Shown piece by piece: positions 54,036 to 62,209 of a stretch of 64,000 bases of DNA. Below the pieces are notes generated by a model. The model was given only the letters and a program-made list of their open reading frames with translations. It made no database searches and was not told where the DNA came from. Positions within the stretch are counted from its first letter, which is position 1. Each line of letters starts with the position of its first letter. The position numbers and the translations under genes were made by a program. The DNA is from Nitrospira sp. (GTDB lineage: Bacteria > Nitrospirota > Nitrospiria > Nitrospirales > Nitrospiraceae): NCBI GenBank assembly GCA_005116745.1, contig SWDS01000006.1, forward strand, positions 607,222 to 671,221, given 5' to 3'.

Positions 54036-54848
54036 CTAGACCACATTCGGCAAGCCATGTTCAATGGCAGTGGCAACAGCCTGAGACCGTGATGTGACAT
54101 CAAGCTTAGAAAAGATGCTCTCGACGTGGAATCGGATCGTACGTTCTGTCACGCCCATAATTTGGGCAATTTCCCAATTCGTCTTGCCATTCTTGACCCA
54201 GTTCAGAATCGTCAACTCCCTCAGCGTTAACTGCTTTACACAGCGATCCATTGATTGGGCCTTTGCAGGGGCCGTGCGTAAGAGCGCCAGATGAACATAG
54301 TATCCGAAATACTCAATGAGTGGCACATATCGCGCAGCATCCACGCTATCGGCGGAAGCAAAGGAGCAGAAGGTCGCGATTCCACATGCAGGATCGGCGG
54401 ATCCGGTCGTAATTCCATCTCCCAGCCCGAATTCCTTTGCAGCGGCCATGAATTCTTGTTGTTTCGGAGTGCTTGCTTGTTGATAGGTAGTCCCCCAATG
54501 TTGGGTGCCTGGTTTTTGCAGAGCGGTCTGAAAGACCGGATCAACCTCAAAATATCCATTTTGCCAGTAGAGTCGAAGCCATTCCTCAGGGTAGCTAACA
54601 TTAACGACGTTGGTAAACCCGTCAAAACGACCGTTGGCTGTGAGGCGAGCGAGGCCACCAATCACTCGCGTAAAAGGGAACAAATTTTGAAACTGGAGCA
54701 GCGCCTCTTTGACACCAGCGGTAGAGTCCGCTTCAACCGTGTAATGGAGTGCTTCGACAAACGCCGTACATTCAGTTTTTGAAAGGGTTTCGAAAAGTTG
54801 GTGGGGGAAGGGGCGCTTGTTTTTTTCAACCGGTGCCACCTGTGCCAT
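54036..54848 (-). CDS. luxR: LuxR-type quorum-sensing regulator
   Basis: A 270-residue transcription factor. The autoinducer-binding domain (about residues 20-185) has the ligand-pocket residues Trp90, Tyr94, Asp103-Pro104 and Trp118 (EEWLRLYWQNGYF, VDPVFQ, QHWGTTY). The C-terminal LuxR HTH is LTLRELTILNWVKNGKTNWEIAQIMGVTERTIRFHVESIFSKL. ATG 54848 has GGAGG six bases upstream; an upstream in-frame start at 54878 is less likely. It is convergent with luxI and should be its receptor. It probably acts at the lux box at 53163-53186 and perhaps at the dyad at 54930. Confidence 0.92.
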   Translation of the reverse strand: MAQVAPVEKNKRPFPHQLFETLSKTECTAFVEALHYTVEADSTAGVKEALLQFQNLFPFTRVIGGLARLTANGRFDGFTNVVNVSYPEEWLRLYWQNGYFEVDPVFQTALQKPGTQHWGTTYQQASTPKQQEFMAAAKEFGLGDGITTGSADPACGIATFCSFASADSVDAARYVPLIEYFGYYVHLALLRTAPAKAQSMDRCVKQLTLRELTILNWVKNGKTNWEIAQIMGVTERTIRFHVESIFSKLDVTSRSQAVATAIEHGLPNVV

Positions 54849-54929
54849 AGGGATCCTCCAAATGTATACAGTGCCCAAACTGAGGGACAGTATAGAAAAA
54901 CGGAACAGGATGCAATAGGGCCCATCAAC

Positions 54930-56442: not shown

Positions 56443-58248
56443 CTACTGTTCAAGGGCCCGACGGAGATTCAACACGGTTTCCGCATTGAGTCCGGCCTCC
56501 TGTAGGGCTTCGTCGCTGGCCGACACCACGTTATCGAGGCTGCCAAATTTCTCTAGGAGTTGATTGCGCCGAATCTCCCCGATCCCAATGACCTGATCCA
56601 GTTTCGAACTGACCAGGGATTTGCCACGCAGCTTCCTGTGGAAGGTGATCGCGAAGCGATGCGCTTCGTCACGAATATGCTGTAACAGATGGGTGGCCGG
56701 AGAGGTAGCTCTGAGGACAATCGGGTTTTTTCTCCCTGCTAAGAAGACACGCTCCTCTTTGTCGCCGCGGGCCTTGGCCAGCCCAAGAATCGGCAGGCCC
56801 GATTGTCCAGTCTCTTTGAGCCCTTCCAGCGCGGCAGCCAGTTGGCCTAACCCGCCGTCGATGAGAATCAGATCCGGCTGAGCCAAGCGCTCCTCTCGCC
56901 CATAGCGACGTGTCACCACCTCTTTCATACTGGCGAAGTCATTGGCCCCTTCGACCGTTTGGATCTTGAACCGTCGATAGTCCGCCTTCTTCATCTGTCC
57001 GTCTTCCCATACAACCATTGAGGCGACGGAGTCGTTGCCCATCGTATTCGAGATGTCGAATCCTTCGATCCGACGCGGAGCCTGTTCCAGTCTCAGTAGC
57101 CGTTTCAGTTCCTCGCCCGCTTGCCGGTCACGCTCCTCATCGCGCAAATGATCGGCGACAGCCGCAGCCGCATTCTCCTCGGCTAAAAGGACCAACTGAT
57201 GCTTGGCGCCTCGCTCAGGCGAACGCACATGAACAGATTCCCCTCGCTTGTCGGAGAGCCATTGTTGAATCAGTACGGTGTCTTCGAGATCGGTCGGGAC
57301 AAGGACTTCTCTGGGCGGCTGCCCATCCTTGTTATAGAATTGTTCGATCGCGGAGCGGACCAGTTCCTCGTCCGGGGCATCAGCCGACTGAGGCCAGAAG
57401 AAATCTTTCCGTCCGATCAGCAAGCCGCCGCGCACGAACAGAATCTGCAGGTCCACCGCCGAACCTTGTCTGGCTAAGCCGATCACGTCCTGATCCGTTG
57501 CCGAGGTCTGCGTGATCCGCTGCTTTTCCAGCATGCGTTGGATCTTGAAGAGGCGGTCCCGCAGCCGGGCCGCTTCTTCGAACTCTTCCCGCTCGGCCGC
57601 CGCTTCCATGCGGGTACGGAGATCGTCCAGTAATTCATGATCCCGGCCTTCGAGAAAGTGGCGGACCTGTTTGACGATCTGATGGTACTCCTCCTTCGAC
57701 TGATGGCCAGTACAGGGTGCCATGCACCGCTTGATCTCAAACTCGATGCAGGCGCGGTCGGCGGTCCCGTCGATGTCGATCGTGCACGTGGCGAGCGGGA
57801 AGACGTGTTTGATGACTTTCAACGTCTCTCGGAGCGCATTCGCCGGGGTATAGGGGCCGTAGTAGAGAGCGCCATCTTTTTGTACACGGCGCACGATCGA
57901 GAGTCGGGGAAAGTCGTCTTTGATGGGCAGCCGCACATAGGGGTACTGCTTGTCGTCCCGCAGCACGATGTTGAAACGGGGTTTGTGGCGCTTGACCAGA
58001 TTGCTCTCAAGAATCAAGGCTTCAAGCTCCGATCGGGTCACCATCGTCTCGACGTCGGTGATGTGATTGACAAGAAGACTGGTCTTGAGGCTATGGTCTG
58101 CTCCCTTCTGGAAATAGGATCTGACGCGATCGGCGAGCACCGCGGCTTTCCCGATGTATATGATTTCTCCTTGCTCGTTTTTGAACAGGTAGACGCCGGG
58201 GCTACCGGGCAGATGGGCAAGTTTGGACTGGAGCACGTCGATCGTCAT
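56443..58248 (-). CDS. uvrC: Excinuclease ABC subunit C
   Basis: The dual-incision nuclease of nucleotide excision repair, 601 residues. The N-terminal GIY-YIG domain (GSPGVYLFKNEQGEIIYIGKA) makes the 3' cut. The central UVR motif (EREEFEEAARLRDRLFKIQRML, about residues 210-235) binds UvrB. The RNase-H-like domain (EGFDISNTMGNDSVASMVV; LILIDGGLGQLAAA) makes the 5' cut. A C-terminal helix-hairpin-helix pair (VIGIGEIRRNQLLEKFGSLDNV) binds DNA. Length and order are normal. It converges with the FadL-like gene. uvrA is far away at 27617 and uvrB is not in the window. Confidence 0.96.
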   Translation of the reverse strand: MTIDVLQSKLAHLPGSPGVYLFKNEQGEIIYIGKAAVLADRVRSYFQKGADHSLKTSLLVNHITDVETMVTRSELEALILESNLVKRHKPRFNIVLRDDKQYPYVRLPIKDDFPRLSIVRRVQKDGALYYGPYTPANALRETLKVIKHVFPLATCTIDIDGTADRACIEFEIKRCMAPCTGHQSKEEYHQIVKQVRHFLEGRDHELLDDLRTRMEAAAEREEFEEAARLRDRLFKIQRMLEKQRITQTSATDQDVIGLARQGSAVDLQILFVRGGLLIGRKDFFWPQSADAPDEELVRSAIEQFYNKDGQPPREVLVPTDLEDTVLIQQWLSDKRGESVHVRSPERGAKHQLVLLAEENAAAAVADHLRDEERDRQAGEELKRLLRLEQAPRRIEGFDISNTMGNDSVASMVVWEDGQMKKADYRRFKIQTVEGANDFASMKEVVTRRYGREERLAQPDLILIDGGLGQLAAALEGLKETGQSGLPILGLAKARGDKEERVFLAGRKNPIVLRATSPATHLLQHIRDEAHRFAITFHRKLRGKSLVSSKLDQVIGIGEIRRNQLLEKFGSLDNVVSASDEALQEAGLNAETVLNLRRALEQ

Positions 58249-58331
58249 GCGTCAATCGTCATGTATCATCGTAAGAATACCAGGAGTACACCGGAGCTTT
58301 CTGTCGGTTGGCTATAACGATCGATGGTTCG

Positions 58332-59201
58332 CTATTTCAATCCCCGGATAAACGACGGGCTTAATGTCCCTCGCGCGACTTCGGCCACCGGCCCTTTCAT
58401 AGTCAGGCTGAAGTCCGGAGCCACCTCAATGTTCAGCACTCCCCCTGGCATCTTCACGGTGACGGGGCTCTTGACTAATCCCAGGCGCACCGCCGCGCTG
58501 GCTGCCGCACAGGAGGACGAGCCGGAGGCCTGCGTCTCTCCGGCGCCTCGCTCCCAAATCAGAATGAAGACTGCGTTACGTCCCGTTGGAACGACAAGCT
58601 GCACGTTTGTCCGTTTAGGAAACAGCTTGTGGTGTTCAAGGGCTGGCCCAAGCGCCAAGAGTTCGTCCCGTGACCACGATTCTCCGGTTGGCTTGAAGAC
58701 GACACAATGGGGATTGCCGACGCTCACGCCGGTAAAAGTCAACGAGCGGCCTGCCGCTTCGATTGGCTGCTGAATCAACTCAGGCACGTCAAGTGAACAG
58801 GGGAGCGCATCCGGCTTGAACGTGGCGATCCCCATCTCGACCGTCGCAGCGGTAGCATCGCCATGCCGGTCTACCTGCAGGTCAATGCTGACCAGCCCGC
58901 CCTTTGTCTCGACTGTGAAGCGCGTCTTCTTTGTTTTACGGGTCGCGTGGAGATAGCGCGCGAAGATCCTGAGGCCGTTCCCTGATTTTTCTGCCTCACT
59001 ACCGTCCGGGTTGAAAATGCGCAAGCCGAAGTCAGCATTCCTTGACGAAACCAACGCCAAAATCCCGTCGCTGCCGAGCCCCCAGTTCCGATCGCAAATC
59101 GCTTTGATGGTCTTTGGCGTCAGCTTGAACGTCAGGTCTTTGGGATCCATCACGAGATAATCGTTACCAAGCCCATGCCCTCGGAAAAACCCGTTCTTCA
59201 T
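58332..59201 (-). CDS. DapF-family protein with both catalytic Cys replaced by Ser
   Basis: A 289-residue homologue of diaminopimelate epimerase. The fold markers are clear: GHGLGNDYLVMD, GLGSDGIL, FNPDGSEAE, GNPHCVVF and ERGAGETQAS. However, the two catalytic cysteines of DapF are changed: CGNG is SGNG (Ser73) and ACGSG is ASGSS (Ser226). The two-base mechanism needs both thiols, so ordinary epimerisation of LL-DAP is unlikely. It may have another activity or be a non-catalytic paralogue. If it is the only DapF in the genome, the DAP pathway would be unusual. It lies upstream of uvrC on the same strand, after an 83-bp gap. I therefore give no dapF symbol. Confidence 0.85.
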   Translation of the reverse strand: MKNGFFRGHGLGNDYLVMDPKDLTFKLTPKTIKAICDRNWGLGSDGILALVSSRNADFGLRIFNPDGSEAEKSGNGLRIFARYLHATRKTKKTRFTVETKGGLVSIDLQVDRHGDATAATVEMGIATFKPDALPCSLDVPELIQQPIEAAGRSLTFTGVSVGNPHCVVFKPTGESWSRDELLALGPALEHHKLFPKRTNVQLVVPTGRNAVFILIWERGAGETQASGSSSCAAASAAVRLGLVKSPVTVKMPGGVLNIEVAPDFSLTMKGPVAEVARGTLSPSFIRGLK

Positions 59202-59324
59202 CTCAGCGGTCCTCCTGATTCAGAGAATTCACACGATATGTTGATGAGAAGAAGGTACTTCGGAGGGAGTCACATCGTCAATGTGCGTAGAGTGTGAAAG
59301 TGAGGAATCTGTATGTGTTGGAAG

Positions 59325-59732
59325 CTAGACGATCATCACTCCTGCTCGGCGTTCGATGAGCTCAATCTCATAGCCGTCAGGAGCATCAATGAAGATGAAC
59401 CGGCTGCCGGAAGAGGTGGCCGTCGGGCCATCGGTGATCGTGACACCCTGTGCATGAAGCGAGGCGATCGTTTCGTCGAGGCTTTCGACTTGAAAAGCTA
59501 AATGAACGAGATCTTCCTGAACGTTCACTGGGCCACTTGGAGGGAAACTGGTCAGCTCTATCAATTCCTCGCTATTGGGGACCTTCAGGAAGGCGAGGTG
59601 GGAGCCACGAGGAGACGTCTTCCGCTCAAGAACCTCGAGGCCCAAGACGGTCGTGTAAAATCGGATGGTCTCATCCAAATCGCTGACCCGCATACGAGTA
59701 TGGAGGAGTTTTTTGACTCGCAAATCTGTCAT
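59325..59732 (-). CDS. VOC-family (glyoxalase-like) protein
   Basis: A 135-residue protein with two beta-alpha-beta-beta-beta modules of the vicinal-oxygen-chelate fold. Likely metal ligands are visible at the family positions: His in KKLLHTRMRVSDLDE, Glu in EELIELTSF, His in LVHLAFQVES and Glu in GYEIELIERR. It is close in shape to lactoylglutathione lyase (GloA) and methylmalonyl-CoA epimerase, but substrate residues do not decide between them, and Nitrospira-type bacteria are not certain to make glutathione. The start codon lies inside a palindromic repeat (59728-59804). Confidence 0.78.
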   Translation of the reverse strand: MTDLRVKKLLHTRMRVSDLDETIRFYTTVLGLEVLERKTSPRGSHLAFLKVPNSEELIELTSFPPSGPVNVQEDLVHLAFQVESLDETIASLHAQGVTITDGPTATSSGSRFIFIDAPDGYEIELIERRAGVMIV

Positions 59733-59804
59733 TGGTCAATAGTTATTAAAAGAGCGATTGCTGTTTGGAATGTACCATTGACCGATGAGTAATGACTACT
59801 GACC
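59728..59804. repeat. CATTGGTCAATAG palindromic repeat
   Basis: TCATTGGTCAATAGTTATT at the start and TACCATTGACCGATGAG then TAATGACTACTGACC at the end form imperfect inverted copies. It is related to the repeat at 16191-16267 and overlaps the start of the VOC gene. Confidence 0.45.
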
Positions 59805-60275
59805 TCTTCCTCTGACAGGCCCCGCCGTCTTCCGCAACAACAGTTCCGCGCTCCCTGGTATCAAGAAGTTAGGCATAGGCCCGATTTCTTGATAGTCGTG
59901 TCTCTTGTAGAAGGCTCTCGCGGAGTCATTAAAGTCCGACACGCAGGCAAAGAGGTTCTTGGTCCGCTCAAAGACGAGCTCTTCGATGTGCCGCAACAGC
60001 TGCCCACCGACTCCCTTCTGACGAGCCCATTCAGCCACGCCTAACAGCTCCAAATAATCGCCCAGGAGAAACTTCTGCTTTACGATGGCGACGCCTGCCA
60101 CTCGTCCGTCACGTTCCGCCACGTAGCAGTCTCGACCCTGAGGCGTCGGACAAAAGATGCGGTTCCAATCATCTTTTGCATAACCGAGTGTCTTCCAGGG
60201 ATCGGATTCGCCCAGGAGGTGAACCACGGCTTCCCGATCGTCTGCCTGCATCGTCCGGATGACTGGCTGGCTCAT
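59796..60275 (-). CDS. GNAT-family N-acetyltransferase
   Basis: A 159-residue acetyltransferase. The acetyl-CoA-binding motif A is ELLGVAEWARQKGVGGQLLRHIEEL, with the Q/R-x-x-G-x-G/A loop as RQKGVGG. Motif B includes ACVSDFNDSARAFYKRHDYQEIG, also typical of Rim-like and small-molecule GNATs. The acceptor is unknown. ATG 60275 overlaps the stop of the polysaccharide deacetylase gene as ATGA, so the two are translationally coupled; a start at 60293 inside that gene is less likely. Confidence 0.85.
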   Translation of the reverse strand: MSQPVIRTMQADDREAVVHLLGESDPWKTLGYAKDDWNRIFCPTPQGRDCYVAERDGRVAGVAIVKQKFLLGDYLELLGVAEWARQKGVGGQLLRHIEELVFERTKNLFACVSDFNDSARAFYKRHDYQEIGPMPNFLIPGSAELLLRKTAGPVRGRGQ

Positions 60276-60988
60276 GGAGTCGAAGACTGACAATTCAATA
60301 GTTCGCTGACGGTCATGGGTTTGAGCCCCTTCTGAGGGAACACCTTTGTTGCCAGTTGCTCGATCACCTGCCGCGTCTGTTTACCCTTGCCGTTCGCATG
60401 GAAGACGATGATGCTCCCGGGCTTGGTCCGCTTGGCGACTCTGGCCAAGATGTGTTCTGCCGAGAGTGTCGGATCTGGATCACCCGATTCGATATCCCAT
60501 TGGATGAACTGCAGGCCGAGCATCTGTACCACGGCGACGGTCTCGTCGTTGTATTCGCCGTACGGTGGCCGAAACAACGTCGCCGTATAGGCATAGTGGT
60601 CTTGCAGGATTTTGACAGGGCCAAGGATCTCCGTGCGTTGTTCGTCGGCATCGTGCATGGGAAGGTGGGCGTGGACGTCACCATGCGTCCCGACTTCGAA
60701 AAAATCCATGCCCAGCAGATGGTCCACTTCTGGCTCATGTTTGGCCATCCACTTGCCGGACATGAAGAATGTGGCGGGGATCCGGTGTGCGATGAGATAG
60801 TCCATCAACGGCTGATCGTAGCCGGACCCCTTGCGCACGGGACAGAGATCGAACGTCAGCGCCACGCCCGGGCAGGTTCGTGGACCGGACTTGATCACTT
60901 GAGCCACACCGTCTACTGGAACGAATGGCCCCGGAGTTGCGGCTAACAGCACGCTGATCAACAGGCGTTGCAGAACGTGTCGTGGCAT
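60272..60988 (-). CDS. Polysaccharide deacetylase (NodB-like), exported
   Basis: A protein of about 238 residues with an N-terminal signal peptide (RLLISVLLAATPGPFVPVDGVAQ). A NodB domain follows with motif 1 as ALTFDLCPV, motif 2 as GTHGDVHAH (the two metal His), motif 3 as RPPYGEYN, and a C-terminal IIVFHANGKG. Motif 1 has TFDLC instead of TFDDG: the catalytic Asp is kept but the metal-ligand Asp is Leu, a variant known in part of the family. It should act on an N-acetylated or acylated glycan in the envelope. ATG 60988 is seven bases after TATACT, so the mRNA may be leaderless. It is coupled to the GNAT gene downstream. Confidence 0.82.
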   Translation of the reverse strand: MPRHVLQRLLISVLLAATPGPFVPVDGVAQVIKSGPRTCPGVALTFDLCPVRKGSGYDQPLMDYLIAHRIPATFFMSGKWMAKHEPEVDHLLGMDFFEVGTHGDVHAHLPMHDADEQRTEILGPVKILQDHYAYTATLFRPPYGEYNDETVAVVQMLGLQFIQWDIESGDPDPTLSAEHILARVAKRTKPGSIIVFHANGKGKQTRQVIEQLATKVFPQKGLKPMTVSELLNCQSSTP

Positions 60989-60995
60989 AGGGGCT

Positions 60996-61001
60996 AGTAT
61001 A
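60996..61001 (-). promoter_or_regulatory. -10 box directly before the deacetylase start
   Basis: TATACT on the minus strand ends 7 bases before ATG 60988, predicting transcription from or next to the A of ATG (leaderless). No strong -35 is seen, so this is tentative. Confidence 0.35.
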
Positions 61002-61057
61002 CCTGAACCGGTGGAGAAGATTGACCCTTTGCGTATTCCGCTGGTACGGTGTTGGGA

Positions 61058-62209
61058 ATGCAGGTACCTTCCTGGGAAATCGGCCGCGCGTTGGGAATTC
61101 CGATCCGCGTCCATGCGTCATGGTTCGTGGTGTTTCTCCTGGTCACCTGGTCACTCTCGACTGGGTATCTACCGGACAATTTGCCCGGACTCACTCCAGA
61201 ACGGTATTGGGCTATGGGGGGACTGGCAGCCGTCCTCTTATTCGTCTCCGTGCTCTTGCATGAGCTCGGCCATTCTTACGTTGCGTTGTACTACCGCATT
61301 CCGATTGAAAAGATTACGCTGTTTATTTTTGGCGGCGTGGCGCACATGCGGAAGGAAGCCCCCACACCTCGCGCTGAATTCCTCATTGCGTTGGCCGGGC
61401 CGGCAGTCAGCTTTGTGATCGGTGGTCTTTGTTTTGTGTGTGTGGAGTTGGCGGAGACGATTCAACGGCATCATGGGCTCCAGGGGTGGATCATGCTTGG
61501 AGCCTTGTTGGGCTTCGTGAATATCCAAATCGGGCTCTTCAACATGATTCCAGGTTTCCCGCTGGACGGCGGACGGATGTTACGTGCGGGACTGTGGGCA
61601 TGGGGAGACAATTTTTATCGAGCGACCAAACAAGCCGCGGGAGTCGGTCTGGCGTTTGGAGTGATGTTGGGACTGACGGGCCTTGTTGTGCTGTACGGGT
61701 CTGCGAGCGGCGGATTACCGACGTCGATGGCATCGAACGGCGGGTGGGTCGTGGTCATCGGCATGTTTCTCTTCGCCGCAGCCCTGGCGAGTCGTCGTCA
61801 AGCGGTCATGCGTCAGGCCCTGGCGACGGTTCTTATTCGGGATGTCATGGTGACGACGGTCACCTCGATTCCGTCGCATTGCACGTTGGATGTCGCGGTG
61901 AATCAGCACTTCCAATCCTATGGCTACGGCGGGTTCCCAGTGTTAGAGGATGGGCGATTGGTGGGACTCATCACCACGGTTGAGATTCAGAGCGTTCCGC
62001 CGTCGCTGTGGCCTTGGCGCAGGGTCGAGCAGGTGATGCGCCCCCGTTCGGAATCGTTAGTGATTGAGCCGGATATTCCTGTCATGCATGCGCTGGAGCG
62101 TATGGCCCGTGAAGGGTGGGGTCGCTTAGTGGTCATGCAGGACGGAGAAATGGTCGGACTTGTCACCCATTCAGCCATCGTGCGTTTTTTGCAATTGCGG
62201 AGAGCCTAA
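61058..62209 (+). CDS. Site-2 protease family metalloprotease with CBS domains
   Basis: A 383-residue intramembrane metalloprotease of the M50 family. HELGH at residues 68-72 (LLHELGHSYVALYY) gives the zinc ligands and catalytic Glu; the third ligand is in NMIPGFPLDGGRMLRA (Asp). About six membrane helices are followed by two CBS domains (about residues 255-380: TSIPSHCTLDVAVNQ ... GGFPVLEDGRLVGLIT; and VIEPDIPVMHALE ... LVVMQDGEMVGLVTH), which usually bind adenosine nucleotides. Such rhomboid-like SpoIVFB-type proteases cleave membrane-bound regulators; the target is unknown. ATG 61058 fits the family N-terminus better than the GTG at 61049. It is divergent from the deacetylase gene with only 69 bp between. 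Confidence 0.87.
   Translation: MQVPSWEIGRALGIPIRVHASWFVVFLLVTWSLSTGYLPDNLPGLTPERYWAMGGLAAVLLFVSVLLHELGHSYVALYYRIPIEKITLFIFGGVAHMRKEAPTPRAEFLIALAGPAVSFVIGGLCFVCVELAETIQRHHGLQGWIMLGALLGFVNIQIGLFNMIPGFPLDGGRMLRAGLWAWGDNFYRATKQAAGVGLAFGVMLGLTGLVVLYGSASGGLPTSMASNGGWVVVIGMFLFAAALASRRQAVMRQALATVLIRDVMVTTVTSIPSHCTLDVAVNQHFQSYGYGGFPVLEDGRLVGLITTVEIQSVPPSLWPWRRVEQVMRPRSESLVIEPDIPVMHALERMAREGWGRLVVMQDGEMVGLVTHSAIVRFLQLRRA

Follow-up and report, generated by a model that had tools for sequence, protein, structure and literature searches.

A Nitrospira diaminopimelate epimerase homolog with serines at both catalytic cysteine positions belongs to a distinct Ser/Ser clade that probably retains epimerase function

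Introduction

The need for cysteine in racemases of the diaminopimelate epimerase (DapF) type is a textbook point, the pKa of serine seeming far too high for the task. In canonical DapF, the backbone NH of the glycine at position 229 bonds the catalytic sulfur, and the surroundings of both sulfurs are free of basic residues (PMC12039745). The Corynebacterium glutamicum enzyme is subject to inactivation by a disulfide (PMC5296763). Cys-to-Ser mutants made in the laboratory are almost devoid of activity (PMC8225329; PMC11602996); engineered single mutants of PddB, a DapF relative, retain less than 0.1% of activity, and the same paper cites similar losses for Mycobacterium tuberculosis DapF (PMC8225329).

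Here we analyze a gene from a 64,000-nucleotide stretch of a Nitrospira genome (hereafter, the window), the product of which carries serine at both catalytic positions, and the group of proteins that share this feature (the Ser/Ser type). With canonical DapF (TIGR00652, two PF01678 domains; Pseudomonas aeruginosa 8qzy, Escherichia coli 4ijz, Anabaena 9mro), the Ser/Ser type has in common the fold, the diaminopimelate (DAP) contacts and the position in the pathway, but differs in the two serines that replace the catalytic cysteines, in Lys72 instead of Met or Gln, in Ser229 instead of Gly, in Pro65, Gln201, Tyr15 and Ile79, and in forming a separate clade. In the engineered Haemophilus influenzae DapF variants C73S and C217S (2q9h, 2q9j), a single serine is present at one or the other of these positions, but these are laboratory-made proteins that lack the residues specific to the natural Ser/Ser clade. 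Precedent for one natural serine comes from a related family that shares the fold, namely, the Ser/Cys 4-hydroxyproline epimerase of Agrobacterium vitis (proline racemase superfamily), in which serine is one acid/base of a two-base epimerase; in that case, however, only one cysteine is replaced, the substrate is hydroxyproline, and the family is different (PMC4113996). A dehydratase of DapF-like fold also lacks catalytic cysteine but catalyzes dehydration rather than epimerization, and its threonine is not in a catalytic orientation. Our search of open-access papers yielded no description of a Ser/Ser DapF.

Results

The dapF gene (58332..59201, minus strand) encodes a diaminopimelate epimerase homolog of 289 amino acids in an open reading frame that starts with ATG and contains no internal stops. 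The protein matches TIGR00652, the NCBIfam equivalog model for DapF, at 224.8 bits against the curated cut-off of 114.65 bits, over residues 4-279 of 288; it gives no match to TIGR00654 (PhzF_family), for which two relatives reach 22-29 bits against a cut-off of 76.2. The first-pass annotation had placed Ser73 and Ser226 at the positions of both thiols within preserved motifs, and alignment to the solved DapF structures bears out the coordinates, the numbering and the motifs. Ser73 (codon TCA, 58983..58985, minus strand), within EAEKSGNGLR, corresponds to the first catalytic cysteine (Cys73 of E. coli and H. influenzae) and Ser226 (codon TCC, 58524..58526, minus strand), within ERGAGETQASGSSSC, to the second (E. 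coli Cys217), both aligning with the catalytic cysteines of the MCGNG and ACGTG motifs. With both thiols absent, the canonical thiol/thiolate pair cannot act as such, as that annotation had held. The protein thus has the full-length score, the two-symmetric-domain fold and the DAP-contact residues of DapF without the two catalytic cysteines, and because both of these are missing, we classify it as a homologous variant rather than as a canonical Cys/Cys DapF.

Downstream of dapF lies uvrC (56443..58248, minus strand), a neighbor kept in Nitrospira, the role of which is outside the epimerase function. The order uvrC, dapF, glyoxalase-like, GNAT-like, polysaccharide deacetylase-like, site-2-protease-like (56443-62209; names assigned by eye) is kept in most Nitrospira loci, and the starts of the last two of these open reading frames overlap, on opposite strands. 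Further away, the open reading frame at 54036-54878 (minus strand) resembles, by eye, a LuxR-type regulator with an autoinducer-binding domain.

Both serines are present in all 30 Nitrospira sequences from loci collected in the genus search, and 80 loci from a genome collection are Ser/Ser wherever both sites are readable. Altogether, we counted 150 Ser/Ser and 86 Cys/Cys sequences, no Ser/Cys or Cys/Ser combinations, and two fragments unreadable at one site; these counts include near-copies (clustering at 85% identity leaves 62 Ser/Ser and 72 Cys/Cys sequences), and the Ser/Ser set was gathered by similarity search, so that they do not give the frequency in nature. Sequencing error is excluded as the source of the serines, given that all close relatives have both, the complete chromosome of N. 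moscoviensis among them. Any suggestion that the double replacement is a peculiarity of this genome thus finds no support, the Ser/Ser type being found in all close relatives and in many phyla. Alignment across Nitrospirota, as proposed in the first-pass annotation, shows the pattern in all Nitrospira that were read, and all Nitrospirota sequences read outside the order are Cys/Cys.

In the phylogenetic tree, the Ser/Ser sequences form a single, long-stemmed clade supported at 100/100, and the support is still 100/100 after removal of 14 clade-specific columns, the trait columns included. The clade is about 30-40% identical to canonical DapF and has members in Nitrospirota, Planctomycetota, Chloroflexota, Rokubacteria, Methylomirabilota, Dadabacteria, Aquificota, Bacteroidota, Ignavibacteriota and Bacillota. 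Many of the members are metagenome-assembled genomes, some of which may be misplaced through faulty binning, but the clade also contains isolates, such as N. moscoviensis, Flavobacterium panacis, Apibacter mensalis and Neobacillus cucumis. Four contigs binned as Latescibacterota or Gemmatimonadota (L056-L059) carry a dapF 77-78% identical to that of the window without the window's neighbors, which may reflect gene transfer, misbinning or a misnamed bin. Collections of plasmids and phages contain distant relatives only, below 60% identity (below 40% among the matches listed), and an origin of the Ser/Ser gene from a mobile element was rejected on these grounds.

Pairwise dN/dS values between the window gene and its close relatives are 0.03-0.18; the gene is under purifying selection. 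Ser73 is encoded by TCN codons in 88 sequences and by AGY codons in 62 (27 and 35, respectively, in the non-redundant set), indicating that serine was kept through changes that are impossible in one step, and Ser226 is encoded by TCN codons only. The low dN/dS and the presence of Ser73 on both codon families exclude a pseudogene or random decay. That the double change looks selected, as noted at first pass, agrees with its fixation in a large clade, with the lack of any mixed Ser/Cys sequence among those counted, and with the concomitant change of other active-site residues.

An AlphaFold2 model of the window protein (pLDDT 95.8) most closely matches P. aeruginosa DapF (8qzy; Z 36.6, rmsd 1.7 Å over 270 residues), and relatives of solved structure are at most 39% identical among the matches listed. 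Chains of the proline racemase type rank below all DapFs (11-16% identity, best Z 26.5), and the proline racemase superfamily was therefore rejected as the closest family, DapFs outranking it in both fold and sequence. The DAP-contact residues, as defined from Anabaena DapF (PMC12039745), are invariant throughout the Ser/Ser set (N13, N64, G74, N75, N163, N199, E217, R218 and G227, with S or T at position 228), including those that hold the distal amino and carboxyl groups of DAP (N64, N163, N199, E217 and R218).

Ser73 and Ser226 themselves are absolutely invariant in the clade. The columns in which the two types hardly overlap, or do not overlap at all, include Y15, P65, K72, S73, I79, Q201, S226 and S229, and most such columns are located at most two residues from a DAP-contact or catalytic residue. 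Position 72 (codon AAA, 58986..58988, minus strand) is Lys in 61 of the 62 non-redundant Ser/Ser sequences and in none of the 72 Cys/Cys sequences, where it is mostly Met; position 229 (codon TCC, 58515..58517, minus strand) is Ser in 62/62 and Gly in 71/72, respectively. Cys166 (58704-58706, minus strand), which follows the conserved His165, is present in 61/62 Ser/Ser sequences and is rare among the Cys/Cys sequences sampled; E. coli DapF, however, also contains it, beside its normal cysteine pair. The only invariant cysteine of the Ser/Ser clade is Cys36, which is common to Cys/Cys enzymes; a relocated catalytic cysteine was rejected, there being no clade-specific invariant cysteine.

A search of the rest of the genome (99.96% complete) for a second, Cys/Cys dapF, as suggested at first pass, identified none, nor any other PF01678 protein, and nearly all other Nitrospiraceae genomes searched have one dapF each. 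Of 39 Ser/Ser genomes outside Nitrospira, 34 contain no dapF besides the Ser/Ser gene; the other five (L096, L093, L102, L099 and L071) have a Cys/Cys gene as well, so that a second role is conceivable in these genomes. Among the 59 classifiable genomes of Aquificota, 13 have the Ser/Ser type only, 46 the Cys/Cys type only, and none both. The sole dapF of F. panacis is Ser/Ser, whereas the sample of its order, 195 genomes besides this one, contains no close relative of this gene, and the nine sequences that were read there are Cys/Cys, so that it looks like a replacement by gene transfer. Such one-for-one swaps are expected if both types do the same job. In several loci of Bacteroidota and Ignavibacteriota, the Ser/Ser gene adjoins dapL and/or lysA, in the arrangements dapL-lysA-dapF (L092) and dapL/dapF/lysA (L112), or next to dapL (L100 and L101).

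In the established pathway, conversion of LL-DAP to meso-DAP is needed for LysA. Family searches and inspection of selected stretches located the pathway genes in the window's genome: LL-DAP aminotransferase (TIGR03540, 613 bits against a cut-off of 593.25; the plant-type DapL model, TIGR03542, does not reach its cut-off in Nitrospira), LysA (551 bits against 297.9, in a lysA-dapA-dapB run) and MurE, with the DNPR motif (594 bits against 373; NF001126, 2,6-diaminopimelate ligase). LysA was detected in all 38 Nitrospira genomes and scored above the cut-off in 32 of the 39 Ser/Ser genomes outside Nitrospira, being below the cut-off or absent in seven, some of them incomplete. No meso-DAP dehydrogenase (Ddh) domain was found in the window's genome or in the 39 other Ser/Ser genomes, and a bypass through this enzyme was accordingly rejected; in the Nitrospira search, weak partial matches of about 50 residues appeared in 3 of 38 genomes. 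The window's genome thus has the DAP pathway with neither an alternative DapF nor a meso-DAP dehydrogenase. Nothing usable was found in the literature on the peptidoglycan chemistry of Nitrospira or Hydrogenothermaceae.

Discussion

The observations above make it probable that the product of this gene is a functional LL-/meso-diaminopimelate epimerase belonging to a distinct Ser/Ser subfamily, with the serines as the acid/base pair. We are most confident of the epimerase activity itself, which we consider highly likely, assignment to the DAP epimerases resting here on pathway context. The first-pass annotation was right that the canonical chemistry is absent; loss of the DAP epimerase function, in contrast, is unlikely, and any suggestion of a departure from the DapF role is at odds with the need of this genome and its relatives for a DAP epimerase, with no other found, and with the intact DAP-binding residues.

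Under the proposed mechanism, LL-DAP supplied by the LL-DAP aminotransferase would bind the conserved DapF pocket, where Ser73 and Ser226, positioned at the N-terminal ends of the two central helices, would stand in for the thiol/thiolate pair, one taking the alpha proton and the other reprotonating from the opposite face; the resulting meso-DAP would feed MurE for the cell wall and LysA for lysine. We lean toward the two serines as the acid and the base. Because the laboratory Cys-to-Ser mutants are nearly dead, serine alone is expected to be a poor base, and we propose compensation: the helix N-termini, together with Lys72, the neighbor of Ser73, and Ser229, in the loop of Ser226, probably render the serines sufficiently basic. 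Assistance by Lys72 and Ser229 is a tentative assignment, but a lysine preceding Ser73 and a serine in place of the glycine are consistent with a different way to make the bases strong enough.

The acid/bases might instead not both be serine; on one face, for example, the part could be played by Lys72 or by a cysteine at a new position, the serines only binding. Lys72 is indeed new to the clade, and the nearly invariant Cys166 sits beside the conserved His165; we nevertheless find this doubtful, because Ser73 and Ser226 never vary, the sole invariant cysteine is shared with the Cys/Cys enzymes, and E. coli DapF combines Cys166 with a normal cysteine pair. An enzyme of this fold could also have become a racemase, epimerase or dehydratase of another amino acid, with meso-DAP supplied by a different enzyme. 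The histidine racemase HisR, of the DapF fold, had itself been annotated as DapF (PMC11602996), within the proline racemase superfamily, a Ser/Thr pair is the hallmark of a dehydratase (PMC4113996), and five genomes carry both types. Yet, all DAP contacts, distal ones included, are invariant, the protein is the sole DapF in a pathway that requires meso-DAP, with no Ddh, the gene is adjacent to dapL or lysA in several Bacteroidota and Ignavibacteriota, and in Aquificota it and the Cys/Cys gene substitute for each other one to one, all of which render a change of substrate improbable.

E. coli DapF binds RppH, and a dead or decaying DapF, or one retained for a non-catalytic role of this kind, would fit the loss of both catalytic cysteines and the near-complete inactivation that Cys-to-Ser mutation causes in this fold (PMC8225329). 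Purifying selection, the invariant substrate pocket, the active site rebuilt across the whole clade, and retention as the sole copy where LL-DAP aminotransferase and LysA are present make this explanation highly improbable.

We therefore favor a working Ser/Ser epimerase, new in its catalytic pair, with the fold and pocket of DapF and probably the same reaction, which suggests a second, undescribed way of running the DapF reaction. Whether this amounts to a widespread class of cofactor-independent epimerases, in which a serine pair is acid and base, the active site is rebuilt in a coordinated manner (Lys72, Ser229 and others), and the Cys/Cys DapF of essential metabolism is replaced in many phyla, we regard as evenly poised. 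TIGR00652 names the Ser/Ser proteins DapF well above its cut-off, so that current models label them as ordinary DapF and the absence of the cysteines is hidden in public annotation. DapF inhibitors directed at thiols, such as aziridines, should miss the Ser/Ser enzymes, which should also resist disulfide inactivation of the kind described for C. glutamicum DapF. With a natural double-serine enzyme that apparently fulfills the same essential role across many phyla, the question of the cysteine requirement becomes directly testable, and comparison across the Ser/Ser clade names the likely compensating residues.
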